From Bdellovibrio sp. ZAP7 (GTDB taxonomy: Bacteria > Bdellovibrionota > UBA1018 > CAIMNF01), in contig CAMCGZ010000004.1 of the NCBI GenBank assembly GCA_945874535.1, forward strand, positions 1-64,000: 64,000 nt of DNA, written 5' to 3'. A program made the translations under genes and the position numbers. The stretch's first letter is position 1. Each line of letters opens with the position of its first letter. Shown in pieces: positions 48,363 through 54,063 of this stretch. Below the pieces are notes generated by a model, which was given only the letters and a program-made list of their open reading frames with translations, was not told the DNA's origin and searched no databases.

Positions 48363-51203
48363 GTGAACGAGAAACAAGCGAAAATCGTTGAATCTCAGGG
48401 ACTTGGCCAGGCTGTGGTGGCGGGGGCCGGGTGTGGGAAAACCACCACCCTGGTCGCCAAGTGCAAAGCCCTCATGGCCCGGAATCCCGAGGCCCGATTC
48501 TGTGCGGTTTCTTTTACGGAGAAATCCGTCCGGGATCTGAGGGAGGCCCTGACCCAAGGCCTGCCCGGAGGGGAGTTGTCCGCTCATTGGGTGAAGACCA
48601 TCCATGGACTCTGCTCCTCGATCCTGAGGGAGTTTCCTTCGCAGTCCGGGCTTCAGGGGGGCGAGCGGATCCTGCTTGAGGACGAGTCTGCCCGTTATTG
48701 GGAGCGAAGTCTGGCTGTCCTTTGGACCTCCACCGACAATTTCGAGATCTCGGAGGCATTGGACCGTTTGCTCGGTGTTTATTCCCGAAGCACACTGGAA
48801 GATCTTCTGAAAAAACTCCGATCCCTCGAGTCCTTTGGGGTCGAACAATTCATCACCCGTTCTTTCGACCGTCCTGAAGTTCGCGACCTTTGGAATGTTT
48901 TCAGCTCGGTCAATCTCCGTTACCGTCATTCCAAGAACCGGGAAGGGGTGTTGGATTTTAATGATCTCGAGACCCGCGCTCGGAAGGCTTTGGAGTTTCC
49001 GGAAGTGAGGAGTCATTACCAGGGTCGATTCGATTTGGTGCTCGTGGATGAATTTCAGGATACCAATCCGATTCAGGGAGAGATTCTCGAGCGTTTTGTC
49101 CGACCGGACTATTCGAACCTGACCATTGTCGGGGATCCGAAACAATCCATTTACCGGTTCAGAGATGCGGATGTCAGTGTGTTCCAGGACCTGGTGAAAA
49201 AGCTTCCCGAGCTTCATTTGCTCGATATCAATTACCGGTCGAGGCCTTCCATCATCCGTTTTGTGAACGAAGTCTGTGCACCAGTGTTCGAGCTGAGTGA
49301 TCTCCCCTACGAGCCACTCAGTGCCGGGAGGGACCAGGGCGGTGCGGAGCAGGCTGTGATTCGGGTGGAGTGGGAAACCGAGGACGATCTGGCCCGGTTC
49401 TTTCTTTCACAGCGGATGGCTGGGGTCGATTTTTCGGAATTTACCGTACTGGTCCGTTCTCTCAGGAAAGAGAAAACCCGGAATTTCCTGGCGGCATTGG
49501 AAAAACACCGGATCCCTTTTTTACTCGGAAGCGGCGGACGGTTTTATGAGGATCCCCGGGTCAAGGAGTTGGTGGCTTTTTTGAAGGGCTGGCTCTCTCC
49601 GGGAAATCTGCTTTCTCAGGCTACGGCTCTCCGGAGTCCGTGGATCGGCATTCCGGACGCGACCTTGCACCAGTGGGCTGCAACACGGGGAGACAGCGGT
49701 TATCTGGATCGCTTTTTCCGGGAGTCCGATCATCCCGTGGCAGTGGCGCTTCGGGAGGGATACCTCGGACCGGATCGGATTTCGAGGTTCCGTCCCGGGA
49801 TGATCCTCGCACGCTTGCTCGAGCTCGAAACTTTGGATGAGCAAATGGTCCAACCGCTGTGCTCTTTGTGGCACAAGTGCGAGGAGCTCAGTCGACAGGG
49901 GCGACGGTTTCATGAAATCGTCCAGACACTCGCTCAAGCGGTCGAGGATTCGAAGATCGAGCGTGAGGTCCCTGCTCCGGCAGAGAAGGGCATGCTCCGG
50001 ATCATGACGGTTCATGGTTCGAAGGGACTTCAATTCCCGAGAGTGGTTTTGCTCGATTTTGATGGCGAGTACCGTGGTGGTGGCTCAGCGGATCTGATCT
50101 GGGACCGGAACCGCGGGGTGCATCTCTTCGAACGGGACGAGGACGGGCAGCGCCTGAAAGACGGAAGCTCGAATGAGTTCTGGTCCGGAATCGAAAAACA
50201 GGCAGCCGTGGCGGAAAGCAAACGTGTGTTTTATGTGGCGCTGACCCGGCCTCAGGAACAATTGATTCTGGGATGGAAAAAAGAGGTGAAGGTCCGGAAG
50301 GCAGCCGAACATCCCGACTATCGTCCCGGTCTCACCGACAATTGGCGGGAGTGGGTGGAGACGGTGGCGTTGCCTCCACTTTGGGAGCCGGTCGAATCGG
50401 CACTGGAGGAGGTATCCCGGCCAGAAGTCGGTCCGTACGTGCCGGTCCGGATCCGGGATTTCGATCCCCGCCCTTATCGTGCCCGTCATTCTCCGAGTGA
50501 GTGGTTGGTGCTTTCGCAGTGTCCGCTTCGCTACCGCTGGAAGTTCTGGGACGGACTGGATGATGCCGAGGCAGAGCAAAAGATTCTGCCCGACTCTGAG
50601 GTTTCTGGCGCTCCTGAGGCTTCTGAAGTCGCCGAGCAAGGAAAGCGGATTCACTCTCTGCTGGAACACGAGGACTGGGAGGGACTCCGGCGGGAATTCG
50701 GTTCTGCAGAGATCGCCGATCGTACTATCCGGGAGCTTGAAAAAGCCCTCGGCCGGACTGATGACGGTATCGAAGTCTATCCGGAGCTCGGATTCGAAGT
50801 TCCACTCTCGGCACGTGAAGGCTTGGTCGGGATGATGGACCGCTTGGAAGTGGATCGCGCCCGGAAAACGCTTCGTGTGGTCGATTACAAATTCACGGCC
50901 CGCCCTAAATCGGCCCAGGCCTTGATCGATCAGTACAGTCTTCAGATCCGGCTCTATGCCTGGGCGGCCTCCCATTTGGTGGAATTCATCCCGGAACGCC
51001 TGGAAGGGGCCATCGCCCATTTCAGCCGTCAGGAGGGTCTTCAGTGGATTCCTTTACCCGGGATGAATCGGGAAACGCTTGAGGTCGAGGTTCAGGATTG
51101 GTTCCAGAGATCCAGGATTGACAGCATGCAGCCATCACCCGGAGACCATTGTCGCTTCTGTGAGTTCAGGGAGCGATGTCCTGTGAAACCAGGGCAGTCT
51201 TGA
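48363..51203 (+). CDS. UvrD/Rep-type helicase fused to an iron-sulphur PD-(D/E)XK nuclease (AddA/RecB-like)
   Basis: A 946-residue DNA helicase-nuclease starting at GTG 48363. Helicase motifs: Q-motif near NEKQAKIVES, Walker A AGAGCGKTT, DEFQDTNPIQ (motif II), GDPKQSIYRFRDAD (motif III), and VHGSKGLQFPRVVLLDFDG with VALTRPQEQL (motifs V and VI). The C-terminal nuclease has GKRIHSLLE, GMMDRLEV, VVDYKF and a Q-x-x-x-Y helix. It is enclosed by four Cys (C720, C930, C933, C939) in the AddB/Cas4-type iron-sulphur pattern. No AddB partner is next to it. Likely role: double-strand-break processing. It is followed by topoisomerase VI. Confidence 0.88.
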   Translation: MNEKQAKIVESQGLGQAVVAGAGCGKTTTLVAKCKALMARNPEARFCAVSFTEKSVRDLREALTQGLPGGELSAHWVKTIHGLCSSILREFPSQSGLQGGERILLEDESARYWERSLAVLWTSTDNFEISEALDRLLGVYSRSTLEDLLKKLRSLESFGVEQFITRSFDRPEVRDLWNVFSSVNLRYRHSKNREGVLDFNDLETRARKALEFPEVRSHYQGRFDLVLVDEFQDTNPIQGEILERFVRPDYSNLTIVGDPKQSIYRFRDADVSVFQDLVKKLPELHLLDINYRSRPSIIRFVNEVCAPVFELSDLPYEPLSAGRDQGGAEQAVIRVEWETEDDLARFFLSQRMAGVDFSEFTVLVRSLRKEKTRNFLAALEKHRIPFLLGSGGRFYEDPRVKELVAFLKGWLSPGNLLSQATALRSPWIGIPDATLHQWAATRGDSGYLDRFFRESDHPVAVALREGYLGPDRISRFRPGMILARLLELETLDEQMVQPLCSLWHKCEELSRQGRRFHEIVQTLAQAVEDSKIEREVPAPAEKGMLRIMTVHGSKGLQFPRVVLLDFDGEYRGGGSADLIWDRNRGVHLFERDEDGQRLKDGSSNEFWSGIEKQAAVAESKRVFYVALTRPQEQLILGWKKEVKVRKAAEHPDYRPGLTDNWREWVETVALPPLWEPVESALEEVSRPEVGPYVPVRIRDFDPRPYRARHSPSEWLVLSQCPLRYRWKFWDGLDDAEAEQKILPDSEVSGAPEASEVAEQGKRIHSLLEHEDWEGLRREFGSAEIADRTIRELEKALGRTDDGIEVYPELGFEVPLSAREGLVGMMDRLEVDRARKTLRVVDYKFTARPKSAQALIDQYSLQIRLYAWAASHLVEFIPERLEGAIAHFSRQEGLQWIPLPGMNRETLEVEVQDWFQRSRIDSMQPSPGDHCRFCEFRERCPVKPGQS

Positions 51204-51256: not shown

Positions 51257-52900
51257 ATGGCGGACAGTAAAAAAATTTCGAGTTCCTCGACAGCGGAGTA
51301 TTTTTCCAAGAATCTTCAACAGGTTGGGTTTTCGAGCCAGACCAAGGCGGTTCTGACGACGCTGAAGGAAGCGGTCGACAACGCACTCGACGCCTGTGAA
51401 GAGCATGGGATCACTCCAGACCTCAAGGTCGAGATCGACCGTCTCGGGCCCGGTTCGATCAAGAACTCGGAACGGATCCGGGTGGTGGTGGAAGACAATG
51501 GTCCCGGCATCGATGGAGAGGATCTTCCCAAGGTCTTCGGAGAGTATCTTGCCTCGTCGAAGTTCGGACGGGGACGTTGTACCCGCGGACAGCAAGGGAT
51601 CGGGATTTCGGCTGCGACCACCTGGGCGCAGCTCACCTGTGCTCAGGGCGCAAAAGTCGTCTCCAAGACCAAGGCCATGAGAAAGGCCGTTTCGGCCCTC
51701 ATCGAAGTGGATATCAAGAACAACAAGGGGGTCATGAAGAATCGGGAAACCTTCGATTGGGATCGCCCCCATGGAACCCGTGTGGAGTTCATGTTCGATG
51801 GGCGGATCCAGATCAACGGTGAGGCCGGGCTCTTGAACTATCTGCTCGGATCGACTCTCGTCAATCCGCACTTGAATCTCGAGTACAAACTCCCGGATCA
51901 GGAGTGGCAGAAGGTGGAACGTGTCACCCAGGAAATGCCGATGATCCCGGAGGCGACCGAGCCGCATCCCCATACCATGAAGCTCGGTGAGTTCATCGCC
52001 CATTCCCATTTGTTCGGCCGCCAGAAGGTATCGGCCTGGCTCAAGAAAGGTTTCAGCCGGATCGGTGATTCGGTCATCGATGAGATCGCCAAGAAGAAGG
52101 AATTCGGCCTCCCGAAGTCGATGTTCGAAAAGCTCGTGGATCAGTTGCCGGACGGTGAGCTCAACAAGCTGTTCTCGGCCATCCAGAACACCGAACTGAA
52201 GGCACCCTCCACCAATTCGGTTTTGAGTATCGGTGAGGACGCTCTCGCAAAATCGATCCAGCGTTTGGGGAAAGTCGATTATTTCTCTGTGGTGACCCGG
52301 AAACCGACCATTTGTGACTTCAAGCCGGTTCAGGTCGAGGTGGCCATTGCACGTCTGGAGTCCAAAAGCTCCGAGGCCGACAGCCCGGTTCAACTCTTGC
52401 GTTTCGCCAACCGGGTTCCGCTCCAGTTCGACAAATCCGCGTGCGCGATCGCCCAGTCGATCACTTCGGTGAACTGGCGTTCTTACGGATTGGCCCAGCC
52501 TAAGGATTCTTTCCCGACCGGCCCGTATATTTTTGCGGTTTCGGTGGTTTCACCTTTCATCAAATTCAAGAACGCTTCGAAAGAAACCATCGATGCTTCG
52601 GATGAATTGGTCGAGGAGATCCGACGTGCCTTGATGCAAGCCGGGCAGAAGTTGTCGCGTTACATCAAGGCCGAGCACAAAGCCAATGAACTCGAAGAGA
52701 AAATCCGCTACATCGAACAGTTCGGTCCCATTCTGGTGGAGGGACTGGCGCGGATCACGAATGCCAAAGAGGACCAGAAAAAGCGCGCGCGTGACGGTCT
52801 TTTGAAGATTCTCGGGCGCGACGCGACCGCTACTGAAAAAGAACTGACCGATGCGAATAAGAAGCTCGAGATCCAGAAAGCCAAGGACGCGGAGGAGTAG
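51257..52900 (+). CDS. top6B: DNA topoisomerase VI subunit B
   Basis: The ATPase subunit of a type IIB topoisomerase that decatenates and relaxes DNA, 547 residues from the ATG at 51257. The GHKL ATPase has EAVDNALDAC (N-box), VEDNGPGI (ATP lid D), GRGRCTRGQQGIGIS, and a transducer domain later. The H2TH domain lies around KKGFSRIGDSVIDEIAKKK. It is followed by subunit A with a two-base gap. Topoisomerase VI is typical of archaea and plants and is patchy in bacteria, so its presence here is notable. The subunit match is clear. Confidence 0.94.
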   Translation: MADSKKISSSSTAEYFSKNLQQVGFSSQTKAVLTTLKEAVDNALDACEEHGITPDLKVEIDRLGPGSIKNSERIRVVVEDNGPGIDGEDLPKVFGEYLASSKFGRGRCTRGQQGIGISAATTWAQLTCAQGAKVVSKTKAMRKAVSALIEVDIKNNKGVMKNRETFDWDRPHGTRVEFMFDGRIQINGEAGLLNYLLGSTLVNPHLNLEYKLPDQEWQKVERVTQEMPMIPEATEPHPHTMKLGEFIAHSHLFGRQKVSAWLKKGFSRIGDSVIDEIAKKKEFGLPKSMFEKLVDQLPDGELNKLFSAIQNTELKAPSTNSVLSIGEDALAKSIQRLGKVDYFSVVTRKPTICDFKPVQVEVAIARLESKSSEADSPVQLLRFANRVPLQFDKSACAIAQSITSVNWRSYGLAQPKDSFPTGPYIFAVSVVSPFIKFKNASKETIDASDELVEEIRRALMQAGQKLSRYIKAEHKANELEEKIRYIEQFGPILVEGLARITNAKEDQKKRARDGLLKILGRDATATEKELTDANKKLEIQKAKDAEE

Positions 52901-52902
52901 GA

Positions 52903-54063
52903 ATGAGTACTAGAAAAGGCGGCAAACTTCAGAGCGAGATTCCGGGCCTCAGTAAAGCCTTGTGCATGAAACTTCTCAGTGATCTCGAACGCGGGAAGCG
53001 ACCTGTGCTCCATGCGACCAAGTGCTCTCTCGATAATGCGATTTACAATCACAAGGTGGGGTATTTCACACCGGGTGGTAAAAAAGTCGCCACCGAGCTG
53101 AATGTCAGTTCGGTCAAGAAGATGTCCCGTGCGGTTTTCATGCTCGAGATTCTTCTGCGAAACATCGATACCGGCGCCGTCAACACCAAGCGCGAATTGT
53201 ACTACATCAGCAAGGGTGAAACAAAGGGAACGCCTTCACTGAAACCGCTCGATTTCACCGAGCAAGGCGAGAGCGACGATACGATCGATTTCATTTGCGA
53301 GCTCCTGGAGTGCTATCGCGAGGAGATGAACTGTTACGCCAACGACCGGGGCGGGCAGACCTATTCTCAAAACCTTGTTGTGACGGAAACCCTTCCGGAC
53401 GGGGATACCGCAGTGGTAGATCTTTCGAAGCTCGGAACCTCGCCTTTCCAGCCGAAGAACCGTCCCCAGAATCTCAGGCTCTCGATGAAAAAGAAGATCG
53501 ACTTCTGCCTCATTGTCGAGTCCGAAGGTACCGCAAACACTCTGGTCGCCAACGGAATGACCAAGCGGCACAATTGCATCGTGATGGGTGCCCAGGGTGT
53601 GCCGTCGAACGCGGTACGGGGTTGGGCCAAGCTCATCCAGGATCAATTGAGTGTTCCGATGTACTTCTTCGGGGACCTCGATGCGTACACCATGCAGAAT
53701 ATTTTCCGGACCTTGAAAGCCGGATCAGCGGCCTCTTTGATCCGGAACCAGGATTACAGTGCTCCGGATGTCCGTTTCCTCGGAGTGTTGCCGGAAGACA
53801 TCAAAAAATACGACTTGTTCGATTATCCGGTGAAGGAGAATGACGCACAGGAAGTCCGTGCGCTCAAGAAAGCCGATGATGCGCTCAGGAATGATCCGTT
53901 CTTCCAGGATAAAAAGAACAAGGGTTCAGCCGACATCCTCAGGTGGCTCATGAAAAACAAGCGCAGGTGCGAGCAGCAAGCGTACTTCTCGGTGAATCCG
54001 AAGGATCCGACGATGCCGGAGAAGATCATCATCGACAAGATCAAGAGGGGCGAGTACGTCTGA
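52903..54063 (+). CDS. top6A: DNA topoisomerase VI subunit A (Spo11-like)
   Basis: The DNA-cutting subunit of topoisomerase VI, 386 residues. The winged-helix 5Y-CAP domain has RELYYIS with a Tyr pair at 100-101; the second is the one expected to attack DNA, by analogy with Spo11. The TOPRIM domain has LIVESEGTAN (catalytic Glu) and FGDLDAYTMQN (Asp pair). It starts two bases after subunit B and has a Shine-Dalgarno (GGAGGAGT near the B stop). Because A and B are both intact, a working enzyme is expected. Its relation to gyrase and topo IV here is not known. Confidence 0.94.
   Translation: MSTRKGGKLQSEIPGLSKALCMKLLSDLERGKRPVLHATKCSLDNAIYNHKVGYFTPGGKKVATELNVSSVKKMSRAVFMLEILLRNIDTGAVNTKRELYYISKGETKGTPSLKPLDFTEQGESDDTIDFICELLECYREEMNCYANDRGGQTYSQNLVVTETLPDGDTAVVDLSKLGTSPFQPKNRPQNLRLSMKKKIDFCLIVESEGTANTLVANGMTKRHNCIVMGAQGVPSNAVRGWAKLIQDQLSVPMYFFGDLDAYTMQNIFRTLKAGSAASLIRNQDYSAPDVRFLGVLPEDIKKYDLFDYPVKENDAQEVRALKKADDALRNDPFFQDKKNKGSADILRWLMKNKRRCEQQAYFSVNPKDPTMPEKIIIDKIKRGEYV

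Follow-up and report, generated by a model that had tools for sequence, protein, structure and literature searches.

A complete topoisomerase VI operon, predicted to be active, in a Bdellovibrionota genome with gyrase and no topoisomerase IV

Decatenation is the preferred reaction of topoisomerase VI (topo VI; PMC8837201), and the M. mazei enzyme reportedly rescues an E. coli parE-ts strain (unpublished data cited in PMC11302465). A survey that asked what role topo VI has in bacteria, with one species per family, reported no strict link with loss of topoisomerase IV (topo IV): 7/17 topo VI genomes kept topo IV, and topo VI, topo IV and gyrase occurred together only in Pseudomonadota and Terrabacteria (PMC11302465). 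Topo VI of Bdellovibrio bacteriovorus is on record (PMC11302465, PMC11318664), and for this species one of these papers lists 'Top II (Bd2865)', 'Top IV (Bd0005)' and 'topoisomerase VI (Bd2864)' (PMC11318664). On a chromosome among our genomes (G133), the genes for topo VI subunits B and A lie next to each other at 2.77 Mb, and the sole type IIA A-subunit gene encodes a GyrA with a GyrA box, lies at 6.4–8.9 kb and adjoins GyrB (L229). This chromosome, at 3,782,950 bases, has the length of that of B. bacteriovorus strain HD100. Judged by position, Bd2864 and Bd2865 are most likely the paired subunits of a single topo VI, and Bd0005 is most likely GyrA.

The DNA analysed here, a stretch of 64,000 nucleotides referred to below as the window, comes from contig 4 of a 2.42-Mb assembly of 39 contigs that is 96.0% complete and 0.7% contaminated. 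Its topo VI operon resembles that of B. bacteriovorus (Bd2864/Bd2865; PMC11318664, PMC11302465) in its B-A order and in a host that has gyrase only and no topo IV, and the proteins are 67% (B) and 73–74% (A) identical to those encoded on G133. Unlike B. bacteriovorus, the host belongs to a different class-level lineage of Bdellovibrionota, and the operon has different neighbors. Topo VI was already known from B. bacteriovorus, and the window pair adds a further example.

Homology to archaeal topo VI (M. mazei, 2q2e/9o0g; Saccharolobus shibatae, 2zbk; M. jannaschii subunit A, 1d3y) extends over the full length of both subunits, with the same catalytic residues and the same predicted folds; the window enzyme differs from its archaeal counterparts in that identity is about one third or less, the Toprim motif is altered (Table 1) and the host also has gyrase. 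With topo VI from other bacteria (Planctomycetota, Myxococcota, Acidobacteriota, Gemmatimonadota, Nitrospirota and families f27 and f28 of Bdellovibrionota) it shares the B-A pair and a host that usually has gyrase only, but its lineage stands apart from theirs on a long stem. It would share with bacterial topo IV (ParC/ParE) a proposed decatenation role next to gyrase; topo IV, however, is a type IIA enzyme whose cleavage subunit is not homologous to that of topo VI, and it is absent from the window's genome.

The two genes are separated by two bases, and the original prediction of a complete pair of subunits was exact to the base in its coordinates and agrees with the family matches. Top6B matched the Pfam model Topo-VIb_trans (E 2e-45), the NCBIfam model 'DNA topoisomerase VI subunit B' (E 1e-156, above its cut-off) and the solved M. 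mazei topo VI-B (E 6e-90). Top6A matched the Pfam models TOP6A-Spo11 Toprim (E 2e-36) and TP6A_N (E 7e-13), the NCBIfam model for topo VI-A (E 7e-117, with 390 bits slightly below the cut-off of 424) and the solved M. jannaschii topo VI-A (E 7e-35).

Table 1. Coordinates of the topo VI operon, its placed motifs and the upstream gene in the window
Feature	Position	Strand	Length or evidence
UvrD/AddA-like helicase fused to PD-(D/E)XK nuclease domain	48363..51203	+	profile matches; 53 bases before top6B
top6B, topoisomerase VI subunit B (GHKL ATPase, H2TH region, transducer)	51257..52900	+	547 aa
GHKL ATPase N-box, EAVDN, E38...N42 (top6B)	51368..51382	+	alignments, invariant
G1 box DNGPG, residues 80-84 (top6B)	51494..51508	+	alignments, invariant
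G2 box RGQQGIG, residues 110-116 (top6B)	51584..51604	+	alignments, invariant
Transducer domain PF09239, residues 317-482 (top6B)	52205..52702	+	Pfam
Switch lysine K442 in transducer (top6B)	52580-52582	+	invariant in alignments
top6A, topoisomerase VI subunit A (5Y-CAP + Toprim)	52903..54063	+	386 aa
5Y-CAP Tyr pair Y100-Y101 (top6A)	53200..53205	+	alignment to 1d3y; invariant
Toprim glutamate E206 (top6A)	53518..53520	+	alignment
Toprim DxD, D258-L-D260 (top6A)	53674..53682	+	alignment; archaeal DGDPYG is DLDAYT here

Alignment also placed R97 of top6A, and every catalytic residue of A and B that could be placed is present and invariant across seven diverse relatives of the lineage. The GHKL ATPase, 5Y-CAP tyrosine pair and Toprim motifs are therefore intact, as had been claimed from the sequence, and closer alignment revealed no subunit that lacks catalytic residues. 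Y101 aligns with the second tyrosine of the M. jannaschii pair (1d3y), the established catalytic one, making Y101 the expected DNA-attacking tyrosine. AlphaFold models of the two subunits are of modest confidence (pLDDT 63 and 67), and their best PDB matches in Foldseek are the topo VI subunits, at E 6e-19 for A and E 1e-37 for B. A subunit B with GHKL and transducer domains, a 5Y-CAP/Toprim subunit A, the catalytic residues and the co-occurrence of A and B in one genome, sequence features by which we recognize a topo VI, are all found here; a topo VI would in addition be expected to pass duplexes in an ATP-dependent manner, with cuts staggered by two bases. The window pair is a complete bacterial topo VI operon with intact motifs and is predicted to be active.

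The fold of topo VI-A is common to Spo11 and to the MksBEFG/Wadjet nucleases (PMC13040014), and Spo11 ranks ninth among the Foldseek matches, as might be seen if the proteins were a Spo11-like or defense-type nuclease, for example the topo VI-like part of MksBEFG/Wadjet. We consider such an identity very improbable: in every intact Bdellovibrionota locus read, the gene two bases upstream of A is that of a complete topo VI-B whose ATPase and transducer are intact, and the best family and structure matches are true topo VI. A Spo11- or MksG-type protein would be recognized by an A-type protein without a competent topo VI-B, or by MksBEF neighbors; the former is not the case here, and no MksBEF/SMC genes are found among the annotated neighbors in the window.

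Topo VI is present in 11/11 genomes of the same genus at 84–99% identity, the gene order around it is common to both same-genus loci read, and GC content is even along the window (0.53–0.57); these three observations together exclude contamination. The mainly archaeal occurrence of topo VI would fit genes acquired by recent contamination or by recent transfer from an archaeon, an origin whose probability we regard as close to nil, given that trees of both subunits group the window topo VI with Bdellovibrionota at full support, and that it is only ~30–37% identical to typed archaeal and other bacterial enzymes. The phylogeny thus bears no sign of recent archaeal contamination.

Spacing suggests that the AddA-like gene and top6B are likely co-transcribed, and this gene order is conserved only within the family. 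A downstream FKBP isomerase is present in 12 of the compared topo VI loci, and the remaining neighborhood is conserved at family level only; apart from the isomerase, gene neighborhood was therefore dropped as a clue to function. The window gave no match in Rfam or tRNA scans.

The genome has one gene matching PF00521, encoding a GyrA of 823 aa that scores well above the gyrA cut-off and carries six C-terminal-domain blades with GyrA-box-type motifs, and one gene matching PF00204, encoding GyrB. Profile searches with PF00521 and PF00204 found no ParC or ParE in this 96%-complete genome; a single gyrase pair is present and topo IV is absent. Topo VI had been proposed to share its work with gyrase and topo IV. 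Because gyrase is the only type IIA enzyme of the genome, this part of the original prediction does not hold: there is no division of labor between topo VI and topo IV.

We think it probable that the window pair forms an A2B2 type IIB topoisomerase, vertically settled in Bdellovibrionota, that acts as a second type II enzyme and replaces topo IV. We infer its enzymatic activity and its segregation role from characterized archaeal topo VI. By this analogy, the one GyrA/GyrB pair would provide negative supercoiling, and in topo VI ATP would drive closure of the B clamp around a transfer duplex. The A-A gate would be cut as a double-strand break by the pair of Y101 residues, aided by metal bound at Toprim, and opened by the transducer; passage of the transfer duplex through it would decatenate sister chromosomes after replication and relax positive supercoils.

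Topo VI and a second type IIA enzyme are mutually exclusive across Bdellovibrionota. Topo VI-A is found in 215/369 genomes of the phylum, and the description of bacterial topo VI as scattered thus does not apply here, where the enzyme is standard. We scored the 201 topo VI genomes with any GyrA-type (PF00521) match and left unscored the 14 without one. A single PF00521 match is present in 192/201; among the remaining nine, which have more, seven contain a split or broken single gyrA and two (G367 and G368) a gyrase contig or fragment from contamination. The PF00521 search found ParC in 0/201 of the scorable genomes, and it is sensitive enough for this purpose, since it recovers the divergent ParC-like gene of family f9 at E 1e-85.

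Family f29 was at one stage a candidate for topo VI beside a second type IIA enzyme, and was rejected: the extra genes of G367 lie on a foreign-looking contig, and that of G368 is a gyrA fragment. The G367 contig (L120, G367:C83), which carries gyrB, a DHH phosphatase gene and gyrA in a Bdellovibrionota bin, is probably a contaminant from another phylum.

Within the phylum, topo VI-A is found in 0/129 genomes of family f9, at least two PF00521 (type IIA A-subunit) matches are present in 107/129, and no topo VI-B was found in the five f9 genomes searched for it. In the several genomes read, the second gene encodes a ParC-like protein of 476–480 aa without a C-terminal domain and lies directly behind a gene for a ParE-like protein of 686–715 aa. 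This divergent ParE/short-ParC operon is likely a stand-in for topo VI. A gyrase tree (quick method, unrooted, with weak deep branches) places f9 adjoining the window's class with a support of 87, among groups that bear topo VI, and this position suggests that f9 lost topo VI while gaining the topo IV-like pair. Family f25, also without topo VI, has a ParC-like protein in 3/4 genomes; with a second type IIA enzyme in f9 and f25, the swap amounts to few independent events. The f9 pairs at L126:6387-9988 and L127:7439-10929 score far under the curated topo IV cut-offs.

In families f23, f24 and f26, topo VI and a second type IIA enzyme are both absent; these families seemingly live with gyrase alone, and a dedicated decatenase may therefore be dispensable. 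Gyrase-only bacteria are on record in Mycobacterium tuberculosis (PMC2923608) and in Helicobacter pylori, which lacks topo IV (PMC3325230). These cases, and the AddA-like gene adjoining top6B, would be consistent with an auxiliary topo VI that deals with replication or transcription supercoils, or takes part in repair with the AddA-like helicase-nuclease, while gyrase decatenates. This role seems to us unlikely, as the AddA-like neighbor is retained only inside the family, and a topo VI kept almost universally, in genomes that lack topo IV, is what replacement of topo IV predicts. Dense sampling of a single phylum provides a cleaner natural experiment on this replacement, with gyrase and topo VI, gyrase and a topo IV-like enzyme, or gyrase alone in sister groups; moreover, some members (Bdellovibrio) are genetically tractable, so that the proposal that topo VI replaces topo IV is directly testable.

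The exclusion fails in some other bacteria. A GTDB contig scan returned at least 579 relatives, the best 80 of which were taken further; relatives were found in Planctomycetota, Myxococcota, Acidobacteriota, Gemmatimonadota, Nitrospirota, Elusimicrobiota, Woesearchaeota and others. True topo IV is kept in 6/49 topo VI genomes outside Bdellovibrionota (two Acidobacteriota, two Gemmatimonadota, one Planctomycetota and one further bacterium; L223-L228). The topo IV calls in these six have no GyrA box and an adjacent ParE-like gene, and the three ParC proteins scanned from them exceed the cut-off of NF007209, the model for topo IV subunit A. Most of these genomes are metagenome bins; strain Mor1 (Acidobacteriota), with both topo VI and topo IV, is represented by a near-complete genome that is no metagenome bin. 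The cases in Acidobacteriota, Gemmatimonadota and Planctomycetota widen the published limit to Pseudomonadota and Terrabacteria. Carriage of topo VI on plasmids was also considered and rejected, the matches being haloarchaeal plasmids and one weak match at 24% identity.

In trees of either subunit, the window lineage forms a single, fully supported clade on a stem of 2.5–2.9 (B) and 5.8 (A) substitutions per column. Topo VI of families f27 and f28 is of a more ordinary bacterial type, 32–36% identical to that of the window, and quick trees suggest that the main lineage and f27/f28 acquired the enzyme independently. Holding the two together was not rejected, with p-AU 0.63 and a better likelihood for A, and p-AU 0.05 (careful tree) and 0.88 (quick tree) for B; we therefore do not claim two acquisitions. 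In families f7 and f8 (L105 and L106), gyrase groups with the window's class, but the topo VI of f7 falls with that of f11 (Bdellovibrio) and the topo VI of f8 with that of f18, and this conflict points to transfer of topo VI between groups inside Bdellovibrionota.

Topo VI of this lineage is also encoded by a giant phage. An IMG/VR contig of 482,156 bp (IMGVR_UViG_3300028558_000016; L214/L221) carries a topo VI B-A operon at L221:8001-10827, whose products are 65% (B) and 75% (A) identical to those of the window. The operon lies mid-contig, beside genes, in the replication module, for a phage family-B DNA polymerase (PolB) and a UvsX/RecA-like protein whose nearest relatives are in huge phages of 462–735 kb and Lak phages; a terminase large subunit is encoded elsewhere on the contig. 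The contig is not a chimera with a Bdellovibrionota chromosome, because the GC content of its topo VI genes (0.37–0.38) is that of its phage genes (0.37–0.39), unlike that of the window. No topo VI-B was found in named phage genome records, and in the papers searched we met no description of topo VI in a phage. T4-like phages use a type IIA topoisomerase; no type IIA gene was found on this contig.

In the careful tree, the phage topo VI falls inside the order to which the window belongs (100/98), with family f5 as its neighbor (91/94). We infer from this one contig that the phage probably infects the window's order and took the operon from its host. The phage would be independent evidence that topo VI suffices in replication-linked topology. 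On balance, we lean slightly towards a combined reading in which most Bdellovibrionota rely on topo VI as their standing chromosome decatenase, exchanged in f9 for a divergent topo IV-like enzyme, and in which a giant phage of the phylum took the host topo VI operon to supply the topoisomerase of its replication module, a part played by a type IIA enzyme in T4-like phages.

The same phage contig encodes, at L221:12-3484, the permease and ATPase of an ABC importer beside a 592-aa protein with an OmpA-like C-terminus, an unusual cargo for a phage.
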